NCBI GenBank assembly: GCA_017529865.1
Contig: JAFXNA010000027.1
Coordinates: 1 to 64,000 of the forward strand
Source: Bacteroidaceae bacterium
GTDB lineage: Bacteria; Bacteroidota; Bacteroidia; Bacteroidales; Bacteroidaceae
DNA length: 64,000 nt
Direction: 5' to 3'
Every line of letters begins with the position of its first letter. Positions within the stretch are counted from its first letter, which is position 1. Positions 54,501-57,985 of this stretch are shown one piece after another. Made by a program: the position numbers and the translations under genes. The notes beneath the pieces were generated by a model. That model saw only the letters and a program-made list of their open reading frames with translations. It was not told where the DNA came from and did not search any database.

Positions 54501-55060
54501 CCCCGCTTCAATGTCACAGAATTGTCCTCGAGATTCTGTCGAGACACTACACGTTCGGCTAATGCATCAGGGTAAGTGACAATGAGAATAGAAAGGGGGT
54601 GGGTCTGGTTAGTTAGCACTTGTGCTAACGTATTCGTTCGCAGCAGTTCGTTCGCATCATCCTTCTGGTTATACTTAATGGCTCGACGATATGAAGAAGG
54701 AAAGAACGACACCTCCCTGTCGCCCAACATCTGTGTCAGGTCATGATAGAAATAGCCCGCTTCCTCCTCATCATCCAAGATGAATAAGAAAGAATTAGCA
54801 GACCCTCCCCCTTTTACCCCTCCCTGTAAGGGCGGGGAGTAGTCACTATTGGGTGTAAACATCTCGTGGTTTTCACTCCCCTCACTCGCAGGGAGGGGAA
54901 TGGGGGTAGGTCTTGATATAATAGAGGCAAAATACAACGCAGCAGACGAACCGTTCAGTCCGTCCACCACTACGTCCGATTTACGTTTCCGTATTGCTTC
55001 AGCCAGCCGCTTCGCATCTGCCGACGAAGCCAACTGCTTCAGTAGTTGTTCTCGTTCCAA
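51533..55060 (-). CDS. mfd: Transcription-repair coupling factor
   Basis: A 1175-residue Mfd that removes stalled RNA polymerase and recruits UvrA. Order: UvrB-homology region (to about 380), RNA-polymerase-interacting Tudor-like CarD domain (FEIGDYVVHIDHGVGKF near 490), RecG-like helicase motor with Walker A CGDVGFGKTEVA, IIDEEQKFGV (DEEQ box) and the GRVGRSNKKAFCYL motif, then the TRCF C-terminal domain. The start codon is TTG at 55060, with AGGGG 4 nt upstream. Three repeat stretches lie in frame: a 114-bp palindromic element (54800-54913), a shorter one (54075-54123) and heptamers (51988-52024). All sit between core domains, so the protein may still work. Confidence 0.97.
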   Translation of the reverse strand: MEREQLLKQLASSADAKRLAEAIRKRKSDVVVDGLNGSSAALYFASIISRPTPIPLPASEGSENHEMFTPNSDYSPPLQGGVKGGGSANSFLFILDDEEEAGYFYHDLTQMLGDREVSFFPSSYRRAIKYNQKDDANELLRTNTLAQVLTNQTHPLSILIVTYPDALAERVVSRQNLEDNSVTLKRGDVMDLTVLEDRLLDLGFVRTDYVYEPGQFAIRGSIVDVYSYSNENPYRIDFFGDEVDSIRTFDIVSQLSDEKMEVASIVPDLLQQQNQYISLLSFLPDDTLIVAKNLDYVADKIGVISETGFSKQASLSLTLPSREGTEGEDASGLLDTSFLSSREEFEREIADKRKVLIGVHEVKGGNKYIKVSFSTEMQPLFHKNFELVTSTFEQLLGDGYTLNIFADNDKQIRRLEEIFDANRKGSTLVVFNPVPIAIHAGFTDHAMKQCYFTDHQLFDRYHKYSLKSDKARRGKVALTLKEIQQFEIGDYVVHIDHGVGKFCGLVRVPTNGQMQEMIKIIYQNDDIVYVSIHALNKVSKYKGREGEAPRLNRLGTGAWERMKERVKTKVKDIARDLIRLYSQRQQEAGFAYSPDSYMQHELEASFIYEDTPDQLKATQDVKTDMERQQPMDRLVCGDVGFGKTEVAIRAAFKAAADSKQVAVLVPTTILAYQHYQTFCERLKDFPVRVEYISRARSAKQTKEVLEDLKAGKVDIIIGTHKLIGKDVKFKDLGLLIIDEEQKFGVSVKEKLRQMKINVDTLTMTATPIPRTLQFSLMGARDLSIIQTPPPNRYPIQTEIHTFSPEIVAEAINFEMSRNGQVFFVNNRINNLMDLKDMIEKQVPDARVCIGHGRMNPQELEEVVFDFMNYDYDVMLSTTIVENGIDIPNANTIIINGAQNYGLSDLHQMRGRVGRSNKKAFCYLLAPPLAALNDDARRRLQALENFSGLGSGMQIAMQDLDIRGAGNLLGAEQSGFIADLGYETYQKVLAEAMDELRAEVLSKNEGEKAKDENQIVNGKWSNSKWFDNVVIESDIVAHFPESFVPSSGERISLYRELDGLTSQAQLDAYTQRLIDRFGPIPSEGEELLKVMPLKWLAASLGVEKVVLKSGNMFMYLISDFESSYYESDVFDRIINYASWHPRNTKLREQDGRRSLWIKDVNSVSHAVSILEEIIKK
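51988..52024 (-). repeat. Heptamers inside mfd
   Basis: On the plus strand CATTTAC TATTTGA CCATTTAC CATTTAC TATTTGG units. They encode a hydrophilic stretch (QIVNGKWSNSKWFDN) before the C-terminal domain. Confidence 0.75.
54075..54123. repeat. GC-rich palindromic element inside mfd, short copy
   Basis: CCCTCCCTTGAGGGGAGGG forms the core hairpin, flanked by CCTCCCCCTCAG and TTAGGGAGAGGC. Encodes SLTLPSREGTEGED in frame. Confidence 0.7.
54800..54913. repeat. GC-rich palindromic element inside mfd, 114-bp copy
   Basis: Termini AGACCCTCCCCC and GGGGGTAGGTCT are inverted. Internal hairpins TCCCTGTAAGGGCGGGGA and CCCCTCACTCGCAGGGAGGGG. Length is 38 codons and the frame is kept; it encodes a Pro/Ser/Gly-rich stretch (RPTPIPLPASEG...PPLQGGVKGGGS). 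Confidence 0.75.
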
Positions 55061-55214: not shown

Positions 55215-55340
55215 TTATGAATTATGAATGTAGTCACTTGCAAACAAGCGGATAAAATTCAGGGTTTCGTCACTTGCATGCAACATCGGCATGTCCAGCG
55301 GAAGGGAATCAAAATCAGTGTCTTGTGTAAAATCTCTCAT
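55215..55340 (-). CDS. Possible 41-aa small protein
   Basis: ATG 55340 to TAA 55217-55215 encodes MRDFTQDTDFDSLPLDMPML... with ETLNFIRLFASDYI near the end. The ETLNFIR-FA pattern recalls C-terminal ends of very small Bacteroidales proteins that I have seen but cannot name. The last residues and stop are encoded by TTCATAA heptamers. No -7 box is visible. It may be real or a fragment. Confidence 0.35.
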   Translation of the reverse strand: MRDFTQDTDFDSLPLDMPMLHASDETLNFIRLFASDYIHNS

Positions 55341-55469
55341 AGGCAATCCTGCATTATATGATAAATTATAAATTATGCATTATAAATTATGCATTATAAA
55401 TTATACATTATAAAGAAATCTTCTTTCAACTATAATAACGTAACAATCCCGATTTTATTTTGCAACACT

Positions 55470-55625
55470 GCATTTTTTTTCAAAAATAATGAAAATGCGA
55501 GGGGGTGTGAAGGCCATGAAAGGGAGGGGGCGAAAAAGGCCCTTTCATGGGGGTTTGTTTTTAAAAATCACAATTCACAAAATTCACAATTCACAAAATT
55601 CACAATTCACAAAATTCACAAAATT
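55470..55625 (+). repeat. Left inverted repeat of the smalltalk cassette
   Basis: Its core 55491-55605 matches the reverse complement of 57846-57960 with two mismatches in 115 bp. It contains an 11-bp stem (CCATGAAAGGG...CCCTTTCATGG at 55514-55550) and three copies of the 16-mer AATTCACAAAATTCAC. Confidence 0.85.
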
Positions 55626-55919
55626 GACTACGTTGAACTAAAGTTTCACAAAAATCACATTTCACCGTTTCACCATTTCACCAAATAGCGGCTACCTTCA
55701 CAGGCTGCCGCTACCAAAAATTGTTAAACCAACTTTATTAACATCAAACTTCGCTTAAACAATGCACATATCATATTTCTAACGGATAGTAATGTTTGCC
55801 ATCCTTACACCTCAATAGGCTTTTTATTTCCGATGCGTATTTTATCCTCGATGATGTCAAAGTTATACGAACTTTCATTCCACAAAAATTTTTCAAAGGA
55901 AAAAATGAGTTGAATACAA

Positions 55920-56096
55920 GAAGTTATTTTGTGAATTTTGTGAATTGTGAATTTTACATTTCTCAATGGAAAAACATTCTAAAGTATATATATAATATAT
56001 ATTCTTTAGGGCATTGTAATCCCGACATTACAAAATTACATAAAAAACCTAAATTCACAGAATTCACAATTCACAAAATTCACAAAATTCACATCT
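55920..56096. repeat. Internal TTCACAAAATTCAC arrays
   Basis: Inverted units at 55928-55958 (GTGAATTTTGTGAATTGTGA) and direct units at 56051-56094 (AATTCACAATTCACAAAATT). The two arrays face each other and could pair. The remaining 55626-55919 and 56097-56122 hold nothing I can assign. Confidence 0.6.
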
Positions 56097-56122
56097 TCCA
56101 TTGTTTTCCCCGTTTTTTTTCG

Positions 56123-56130
56123 TAACTTTG
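56123..56130 (+). promoter_or_regulatory. -7 box for the cassette operon
   Basis: TAACTTTG. It leaves a leader of about 155 nt that contains three copies of TTTACCTCTTG-type 11-mers at 56170-56205. Confidence 0.7.
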
Positions 56131-56291
56131 TATCGTCGAAAGGGCAAGAAACCCAGCGAACAACGCAGGTGTACCTCTTGTTTACCTCTTGTTTACCTCT
56201 TATTTATAAGATAGGAGTTCGAGCGGAGTTAGTGGCAAGGTATAAGCGGAGCTCAACGGGAAGCCCTAAAAACGACACCCAAAAAAACAAC

Positions 56292-57500
56292 ATGGCAGTA
56301 AGTCAAGGTTATTACGGTCTACGTCGTGGTTCAACGAAATCACATACCTACTCAGTAGTAGGTGGTAAGCAGATTACCAAAGACCGCGTAGAAGGTGGAA
56401 AGAATCCACGCACATTGGGTCAGATGAAGCAACGCGCGATTATCGCAACCGTTGGTTCCGCCTACAGTGCAATGAAGACCATCTGTGATCACTCTTTCGA
56501 GGGAGTTACAGCAGGTCGTGAATCAATGACTGAGTTCATCTCTCTGAACACATCATTGGTTCGTCAGTCAATCAACCAATCAAACGGATTCTTCGGAATC
56601 AACAAGTGGGGAGTAAAGGGCATGATGCCTGGCAGCTACATCATTTCAATGGGTACGCTTCCATCCATCGCTCCCGACCTCTCAACGCTCAGCATTGACG
56701 GTGCAGCAAAAACTGCTGTTATCGACGTTGCTTATGGACGTAGCGTCGCAGACATTTGCGAAGAGCTGGGTTTGAAGCAGTACGGCGATATGGCAACCAT
56801 CTGTATCGCTTACAAGAAGAAGGACGGAACTTACGGTTTCGGTGCCGCTCGTTTCACCTTCAAGCAGGGTGCAGATGTAGCAGGTTCATTCGATCTCGCC
56901 ATCACGGGTGACCTCGTAGCCGCTTCGTTTGCTTACGCAACGAATAAGCTGAGCCTCACCGTAAAGACTGCTTTCGAGTGGGCTGACGGTGCTGATGCTG
57001 AGCACACTTATACTGCTGCAATCTGCTCGCAGTATCGCAACGGTAAGTACTTCCGTAGTAAGGCTCAGTTCGATGTCCTCGATGCTTCTCCAAGCTATGC
57101 AGAGGCAATTCAGACCTACCCAGTAGGTCAGGAGCGTTTCCTCAATGGTGATGCTTCAAACAACGACAATGGTGGTGCTGCTCCCGTAGAACCATCAACG
57201 CCAACCGACCCCGTAGTGACTGACCCAGTCCTCACCATTCAGAAGAATGGTACAGGCTCGGTAGCAGTAACTCATGATGGATCAGCTGTTCAGACAGGCG
57301 CAACCGTGACTGCAGGTGACGAGGTTGAACTCGTCGTAACTCCAGCAGAAGGATTCACTCCGACTGCAACTGTCAACGGACAGTCTGTTCAATTGACCCA
57401 GAGCGGCAACAACTGGGAAGGTAGCTTCCTCATGCCATCAGCTAATGCAACTCTCAGCGTTGTTACTTCAAGCAACGGCGGTGGAGTTGACCAGAACTAA
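56292..57500 (+). CDS. Repeat-domain protein of unknown function in the smalltalk cassette
   Basis: A 402-residue protein. The start is ATG 56292 (MAVSQGYYGLRRGSTKSHTY); the frame extends further upstream but through the leader repeats. There is no signal peptide. Residues 1-285 form one domain: basic N-terminus, GGKNPRTLGQMKQRAIIATV near 37-56, then beta-rich sequence; there is a faint resemblance to DUF6266-type proteins (NPRT-x-x-Q-x-x-R) by recollection. A Pro/Thr linker (PVEPSTPTDPVVTDP) leads to a C-terminal bacterial-repeat/InlB-B-like domain (about 312-395; GDEVELVVTPAEGFTPTATVNG). It is followed by a smalltalk gene where many Bacteroides have an HU-like protein. Confidence 0.75.
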   Translation: MAVSQGYYGLRRGSTKSHTYSVVGGKQITKDRVEGGKNPRTLGQMKQRAIIATVGSAYSAMKTICDHSFEGVTAGRESMTEFISLNTSLVRQSINQSNGFFGINKWGVKGMMPGSYIISMGTLPSIAPDLSTLSIDGAAKTAVIDVAYGRSVADICEELGLKQYGDMATICIAYKKKDGTYGFGAARFTFKQGADVAGSFDLAITGDLVAASFAYATNKLSLTVKTAFEWADGADAEHTYTAAICSQYRNGKYFRSKAQFDVLDASPSYAEAIQTYPVGQERFLNGDASNNDNGGAAPVEPSTPTDPVVTDPVLTIQKNGTGSVAVTHDGSAVQTGATVTAGDEVELVVTPAEGFTPTATVNGQSVQLTQSGNNWEGSFLMPSANATLSVVTSSNGGGVDQN

Positions 57501-57560
57501 GACCCACCCCCTGTGCCCCTCCCTGTAAGGGAGGGGAGTGGGATGAGGGGCTGATGAACT
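57501..57560. repeat. GC-rich palindromic element after the cassette gene
   Basis: AGACCCACCCCC, then CCCCTCCC-TGTAA-GGGAGGGG. Same family as 13427-13510 and 54800-54913. Octamer-like AACCTTAA repeats follow at 57578-57624. Confidence 0.7.
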
Positions 57561-57628
57561 AGAAGGGAAGAGTAGTGACAGGGAACCTTAAAACCTCAAA
57601 ACCTTAAACCTTAAAACCTTAAAAATGT

Positions 57629-57724
57629 ATGGAAGAAAACAAGAAGAAGGTCATTGCAGAAGTGATACGCTTCATCATCACAGTACTTGGTGCCCTCCTC
57701 GGCACATCGGCACTACAGTCATGA
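57629..57724 (+). CDS. Smalltalk protein, 31 aa
   Basis: ATG 57629 to TGA 57722-57724 encodes MEENKKKVIAEVIRFIITVL then GALLGTSALQS. The charged N-terminus, one hydrophobic helix and small-residue C-terminus match the 'smalltalk' family of about 32-residue Bacteroidales proteins (typically MEENKK...II..L.AI...LG...C). Function is unknown; a single membrane-spanning peptide is likely. It usually sits beside an HU-like DNA-binding gene and often an amidase; neither is here. It is followed by a terminator. Confidence 0.8.
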   Translation: MEENKKKVIAEVIRFIITVLGALLGTSALQS

Positions 57725-57726
57725 GC

Positions 57727-57808
57727 CTCCTCCAGCTCCCCCTCAGGGGGGAGGGTATAGCCTTACCCTGAAAGCCCCCTCTCTTGAGGAGAGGGATGGG
57801 GAGAGGCT
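57727..57808. repeat. GC-rich palindromic elements between smalltalk gene and terminator
   Basis: CCCCCTCAGGGGGG hairpin, then AAAGCCCCCTCTC-TTGA-GGAGAGGG and GGGGAGAGGCTTT; outer ends AAAGCC/GGCTTT are inverted. Confidence 0.7.
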
Positions 57809-57810
57809 TT

Positions 57811-57839
57811 GAGTCGGGCTTAACTGCTCGACTCTTTTT
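57811..57839 (+). terminator. Terminator of the smalltalk operon
   Basis: GAGTCGGGC and GCTCGACTC pair with one mismatch around TTAACT, followed by TTTTTG. Confidence 0.85.
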
Positions 57840-57840
57840 G

Positions 57841-57985
57841 TGATTTTGTGAATTTTGTGAATTGTGAATTTTGTGAATTGTGATTTTTAAAAACAAACCC
57901 CCATGAAAGGGCCTTTTTCGCCCCCTCCCTTTCATGGGCTTCACACCCCCTCCCATTTTCATCATTTTTTTCAAAAAAGATGCGA
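57841..57985 (-). repeat. Right inverted repeat of the smalltalk cassette
   Basis: Reverse complement of 55470-55625 (two mismatches over the 115-bp core), with two 16-mers AATTCACAAAATTCAC instead of three. Confidence 0.85.

Follow-up and report, generated by a model that had tools for sequence, protein, structure and literature searches.

Positions 55470-57985 of the 64,000-nt stretch of Bacteroidaceae DNA analysed here (the window; the genome it belongs to is called G000) hold a small two-gene cassette, in a Bacteroidales genome of gut type, enclosed by two long, near-identical inverted repeats, which raises the question of what such a bracket does. The initial annotation proposed that the enclosed segment is either a non-autonomous mobile unit or an invertible one. 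We wondered whether the repeats move the cassette, flip it, or do neither, and compared the locus with the rest of G000, with a sister species (G006) and with other relatives. The reading that we consider probable is that the repeats passively provide a substrate for recombination and that the cassette between them belongs to a modular kind already known.

The inverted pair is real, unusual and old. The left arm (55470..55614, + strand) consists of a hairpin unit followed by an array, and the right arm (57836..57983, - strand) of an array followed by a hairpin unit. The arms match over 133 ungapped nt at 95% (55473-55605 with 57846-57978), and their gapped alignment spans 148 columns at 93.9% and scores 221 bits, compared with a best score of 38 bits in 60 dinucleotide shuffles. 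The core contains two mismatches (98% over 113 nt). The claim of long near-identical repeats thus holds, at 94-95% over 133-148 positions and far above chance. In a scan for inverted pairs of at least 60 nt and at least 85% identity with a spacing of 300-8000 nt, the arms were the sole pair to pass in 861 kb of G000 and related genomes.

Each arm contains a hairpin with a stem of 11-12 bp, located at 55514..55550 (+ strand; 11-bp stem CCATGAAAGGG/CCCTTTCATGG) on the left and at 57900..57938 (+ strand; -19.1 kcal/mol, z -4.3) on the right; an Rfam search returned nothing. The left-arm array of 16-mers (7+9) occupies 55563..55624 (+ strand), and further array copies lie between the arms in reverse (55926..55955, - strand) and forward (56052..56093, + strand) orientation. 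The internal 11-bp stem, the 16-mer array on both arms and the internal 16-mer copies in both orientations are accordingly all present, as had been annotated.

The interior reads as a complete transcription unit, with the promoter, gene, smalltalk-type open reading frame (ORF) and terminator that had been described between the arms. The promoter, TTG-N19-TAACTTTG (56101..56130, + strand), was read directly from the sequence and fits the Bacteroidales-type consensus. It is followed by a gene for a 402-residue protein (56292..57500, + strand), a smalltalk-type ORF of 31 codons (57629..57724, + strand) and an intrinsic terminator, GAGTCGGGC-TTAACT-GCTCGACTC-T5 (57811..57840, + strand; -16.4 kcal/mol, z -5.4), of a type also found 3' of other cassettes. 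The left arm is about 500 nt upstream of the promoter and so lies outside the transcript, which leaves the initial suggestion that the arms fold the transcript ends together without support.

The 402-residue protein has two parts. Its first ~290 residues form a DUF6266-like head, a separate domain predicted to contain two helices followed by a β-rich part (pLDDT 82.6, model built with 20 sequences); its last ~90 (about 310-402) form a β-repeat, Ig/InlB-like tail with a weak Flg_new_2 match and confident strands in the structure model. The model of the full-length protein is poor, and its structural matches are antibody β sandwiches. The head model has no convincing match in the PDB and one strong match in a viral structure library, to a protein of unknown function; a search of solved structures by sequence gave no match for the window protein. 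An HU domain (PF18291) sought at its N terminus was not found, although paralogs do match. The window protein itself does not match DUF6266 (PF19781) either; the resemblance comes from one distant head relative, which is weakly similar over the N-terminal NPRT..Q..QR region (E 0.014, 15.4 bits, below the curated cut-off of 23.4 bits).

The smalltalk-type ORF is a shortened copy. An ORF of this type is indeed present where a 31-residue smalltalk gene had been annotated, but it scores 14.2 bits against NF033879, under the curated cut-off of 24.7 bits, compared with 47.7 bits for the paralog on contig C22. It retains the position after the tail gene and the membrane segment and lacks the family's terminal Cys-containing motif. 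In most full copies the last residues are Q-S-C and two to three more, an end that resembles a lipoprotein signal and may be lipidated. The copies in the window, on C34, on C5 and on G006 C25 stop before the Cys, at the point where a palindromic G+C-rich block common to all four begins (in the window directly 3' of codon 31, at 57722..57810, no strand assigned). Gene position suggests that smalltalk once supplied the membrane component of a lysis module, an ancestral role that we infer from its neighbours; as a holin it gave weak matches only (E 0.042).

The window cassette is one of several in its genome. G000 contains 12 copies of the tail and nine of smalltalk, with four kinds of head: two HU types, DUF6261 and the DUF6266-like head of the window. 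In this genome, heads of different kinds showed no detectable similarity, yet at the DNA level the tails that go with the two HU kinds share 78-95% identity; the tail in the window stands further off, at 58-65%. The window's smalltalk was matched with seven other G000 copies and shares 89-94% identity with six of them and 72% with the seventh, on C32, but its identity to the syntenic copy of G006 is 75%. The smalltalk copies of G000 C32 and G006 C2 are 100% identical. The cassette family is therefore modular and recombining, with exchangeable N-terminal heads and a common tail type.

Some paralogs continue beyond smalltalk: the order on C22 is HU-type tail protein, smalltalk, amidase-like ORF, and on C9 HU-type tail protein, smalltalk, M15 peptidase. 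This gene order and tail kind are those of the HU-HIG / smalltalk / N-acetylmuramoyl-L-alanine amidase neighbourhood of Bacteroidales (PF18291, NF033879 / DUF6486). The initial statement that no element of this form has been described thus applies to the unusual bracket but not to the cassette, which belongs to that neighbourhood. The window differs from it in its DUF6266-like rather than HU head, in having no endolysin afterwards, in its shortened smalltalk and in the hairpin repeats that bracket the unit.

Several features of the wider family were seen alongside. The linkers of some tail proteins contain 'TPDPSPQGEG'-like stretches that read as translated palindromic repeats (L026:5724-6608, L077:4954-5781, L030:5743-6546). 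Some cassettes (L026, L072, L089) have lipoprotein and ankyrin-type genes and an RHS-like fragment nearby, reminiscent of immunity gene arrays. Both ends of the 151-kb G000 contig C14 (L032, L033) are tail copies in opposite orientation, and several other G000 contigs also end in cassettes.

Relatives are encoded at 39 loci, mostly in rumen and other ruminant-gut Bacteroidales assemblies, and their tails vary (glycine-rich, chitobiase C-terminal-like, Big_2-like). One relative is encoded on a 10.4-kb human faecal scaffold that is labelled as phage in a record marked unverified (MT836516.1, L166). There it is preceded by an SSB and a replication initiator and followed by a 75-residue membrane protein, an M15 endolysin and a spanin-like lipoprotein. 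No relatives turned up in viral contigs, whether the query was the window protein or its alignment, the hairpin or the relative from the phage-labelled scaffold, and a plasmid search gave no match.

The arm repeat also exists outside the bracket. Five copies of the hairpin repeat were found in G000 and three in G006, one of the latter partial. The hairpin unit stands singly at three other G000 sites: after smalltalk on C34, after a Bro-N gene on C46, and on C44, where the copy is a longer intact hairpin (-47.6 kcal/mol). On G006 C15, half a unit lies near an M15 gene. Among 301 family genomes the hairpin part is present in two, G000 and G006, and other matches are mainly to the array. Dispersed intergenic hairpin copies are what a REP-type palindromic repeat would show, and the arm repeat is likewise short and hairpin-forming, as in REP/BIME- and MITE-type repeats. 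It differs from these in its few copies, in having no identified partner transposase and in its attachment to a heptamer array. The window has many period-7 arrays; heptamer intergenic repeats such as TAACTGA arrays are known in other bacteria (PMC4679880), with a different sequence, and here the array is part of the repeat arms.

Two further repeats of the locus deserve mention. A 40-nt palindromic repeat of the CCCCTCCCTGTAAGGGAGGGG type at 57501-57541 has several dozen matches in the genome. Within mfd, an in-frame stretch of ~40 residues (54797-54916, residues about 49-88) has no counterpart in relatives such as G014; it matches a G+C-rich palindromic repeat present elsewhere in the genome and is a repeat inserted in a coding gene.

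The bracket occupies the same site in the sister species. In G006 the left arm lies beside mfd (C27:33753-33889) and the right arm beside an outer-membrane-protein (OMP) gene (C25:953-1088), although the two contigs are not joined between the arms and the sequence adjoining the left arm differs from that of G000. Because G006 has both arms at the mfd/OMP site, the bracket arrangement predates the split of the two species. In the array part, the two arms agree at 96% in G000 and at 80% in G006, and arms from different species agree at 71-89%, so that homogenisation of the array is clear in G000 only, in a comparison resting on two draft genomes. Together, the array homogenisation and the likeness of the window smalltalk to its paralogs indicate sequence exchange within the genome.

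On the reading that we favour, the segment is one member of a dispersed family of modular cassettes, in which an exchangeable N-terminal head and a common type of β-repeat tail are followed by the smalltalk membrane peptide and, in some copies, by an endolysin-type peptidase or amidase. The arms are a short palindromic repeat, dispersed in the genome and linked to a heptamer-type array, in two copies that face each other. Of these, the right one sits at the usual 3' end of a cassette, in the order terminator, array, hairpin, as at C34 and C46, and the left one abuts the promoter region of the operon of mfd and a 43-residue ORF. By the mechanism that we infer, the pair, older than the split of the two species, would passively serve homologous recombination or gene conversion, both between the arms and between paralogous cassettes. 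Among the points against this passive reading, the left arm is not a 3' end and so needs a separate event, and the left flank stops being homologous to G014 near the arm's outer edge, which is what the boundary of an insertion would look like. The 43-residue ORF itself (55215-55346, upstream of mfd) is kept in G014 at 90% over 39 residues.

A possible extension, compatible with the passive reading and put forward tentatively, is that the bracket is the relic of a chromosomal rearrangement between two cassettes, which brought mfd next to the OMP gene and put two repeat copies face to face. In G014, mfd adjoins a gene for a 685-residue protein with no cassette between them; in G000 the 685-residue gene adjoins another cassette, on C32, and mfd adjoins the window cassette, so cassettes stand at both sides of the changed adjacency. 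The neighbours of the OMP gene also differ among relatives; an ABC-F gene adjoins it in G003 and G013 and is absent from the G000 assembly. Against this, the adjacency of mfd and the 685-residue gene was seen in one relative only, and the event cannot be reconstructed from the contigs.

That the segment flips by recombination between its arms, with both orientations in the population, we consider unlikely. The arms are long and near-identical enough for homologous recombination, the homogenisation of the array within G000 supports exchange between them, and the outer variants appear swapped between the two species (at two informative sites only). Yet there is no invertase inside, and the 3' end of the cassette faces the OMP gene in both species, giving one orientation in two assemblies. 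Promoter and terminator are both between the arms, so an inversion would not turn expression of the gene on or off, and we found no support for the bracket as an expression switch. It is also rather unlikely that the roughly dozen cassettes constitute a working diversification system, in which shared tails, smalltalk modules and hairpin repeats recombine, moving unrelated heads between sites and rearranging the chromosome, with the bracketed unit as a specially mobile or invertible member.

Movement of the whole 2.5-kb segment as a non-autonomous unit, with the arms as terminal inverted repeats for a transposase or integrase encoded elsewhere, seems improbable. In its favour are the end of the G014 left-flank homology near the arm's outer edge and the single arms at other cassettes. 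An 18-nt sequence at the left outer end (55474..55491, + strand) is directly repeated at the right (57965..57982, + strand; 89%) and could be a target duplication; this is uncertain, as the repeat is A/T-rich and quasi-palindromic. However, no transposase or recombinase was found between the arms, and a MITE-like element would have several bracketed copies in the genome. No second one was found in G000 or relatives, with the caveat that at C34 and C46 the copy is close to the start of its contig and a partner arm could be missing there; other cassette loci with enough flank had no facing arms longer than 45 nt. No relative examined has an empty mfd-OMP site, and the site is the same in two species. 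The search of relatives for arm copies and empty sites hence spoke mostly against mobility, the solitary repeat copies being the exception. We also discarded a simple insertion between neighbouring mfd and OMP genes, since these are not adjacent in any relative examined.

In Bacteroidales, cassettes of HU-type head, tail and smalltalk are a puzzle. Our comparison indicates that their heads, tails and smalltalk modules pass from site to site. It also indicates that assembly breaks and altered gene neighbourhoods are marked by cassette copies, and that the head slot can take a domain that, on a small scaffold labelled as phage, is encoded next to replication and lysis genes. From this come a concrete lead on where the cassettes originated, namely a phage-like module for lysis or replication, and one on the poor assembly of such genomes.
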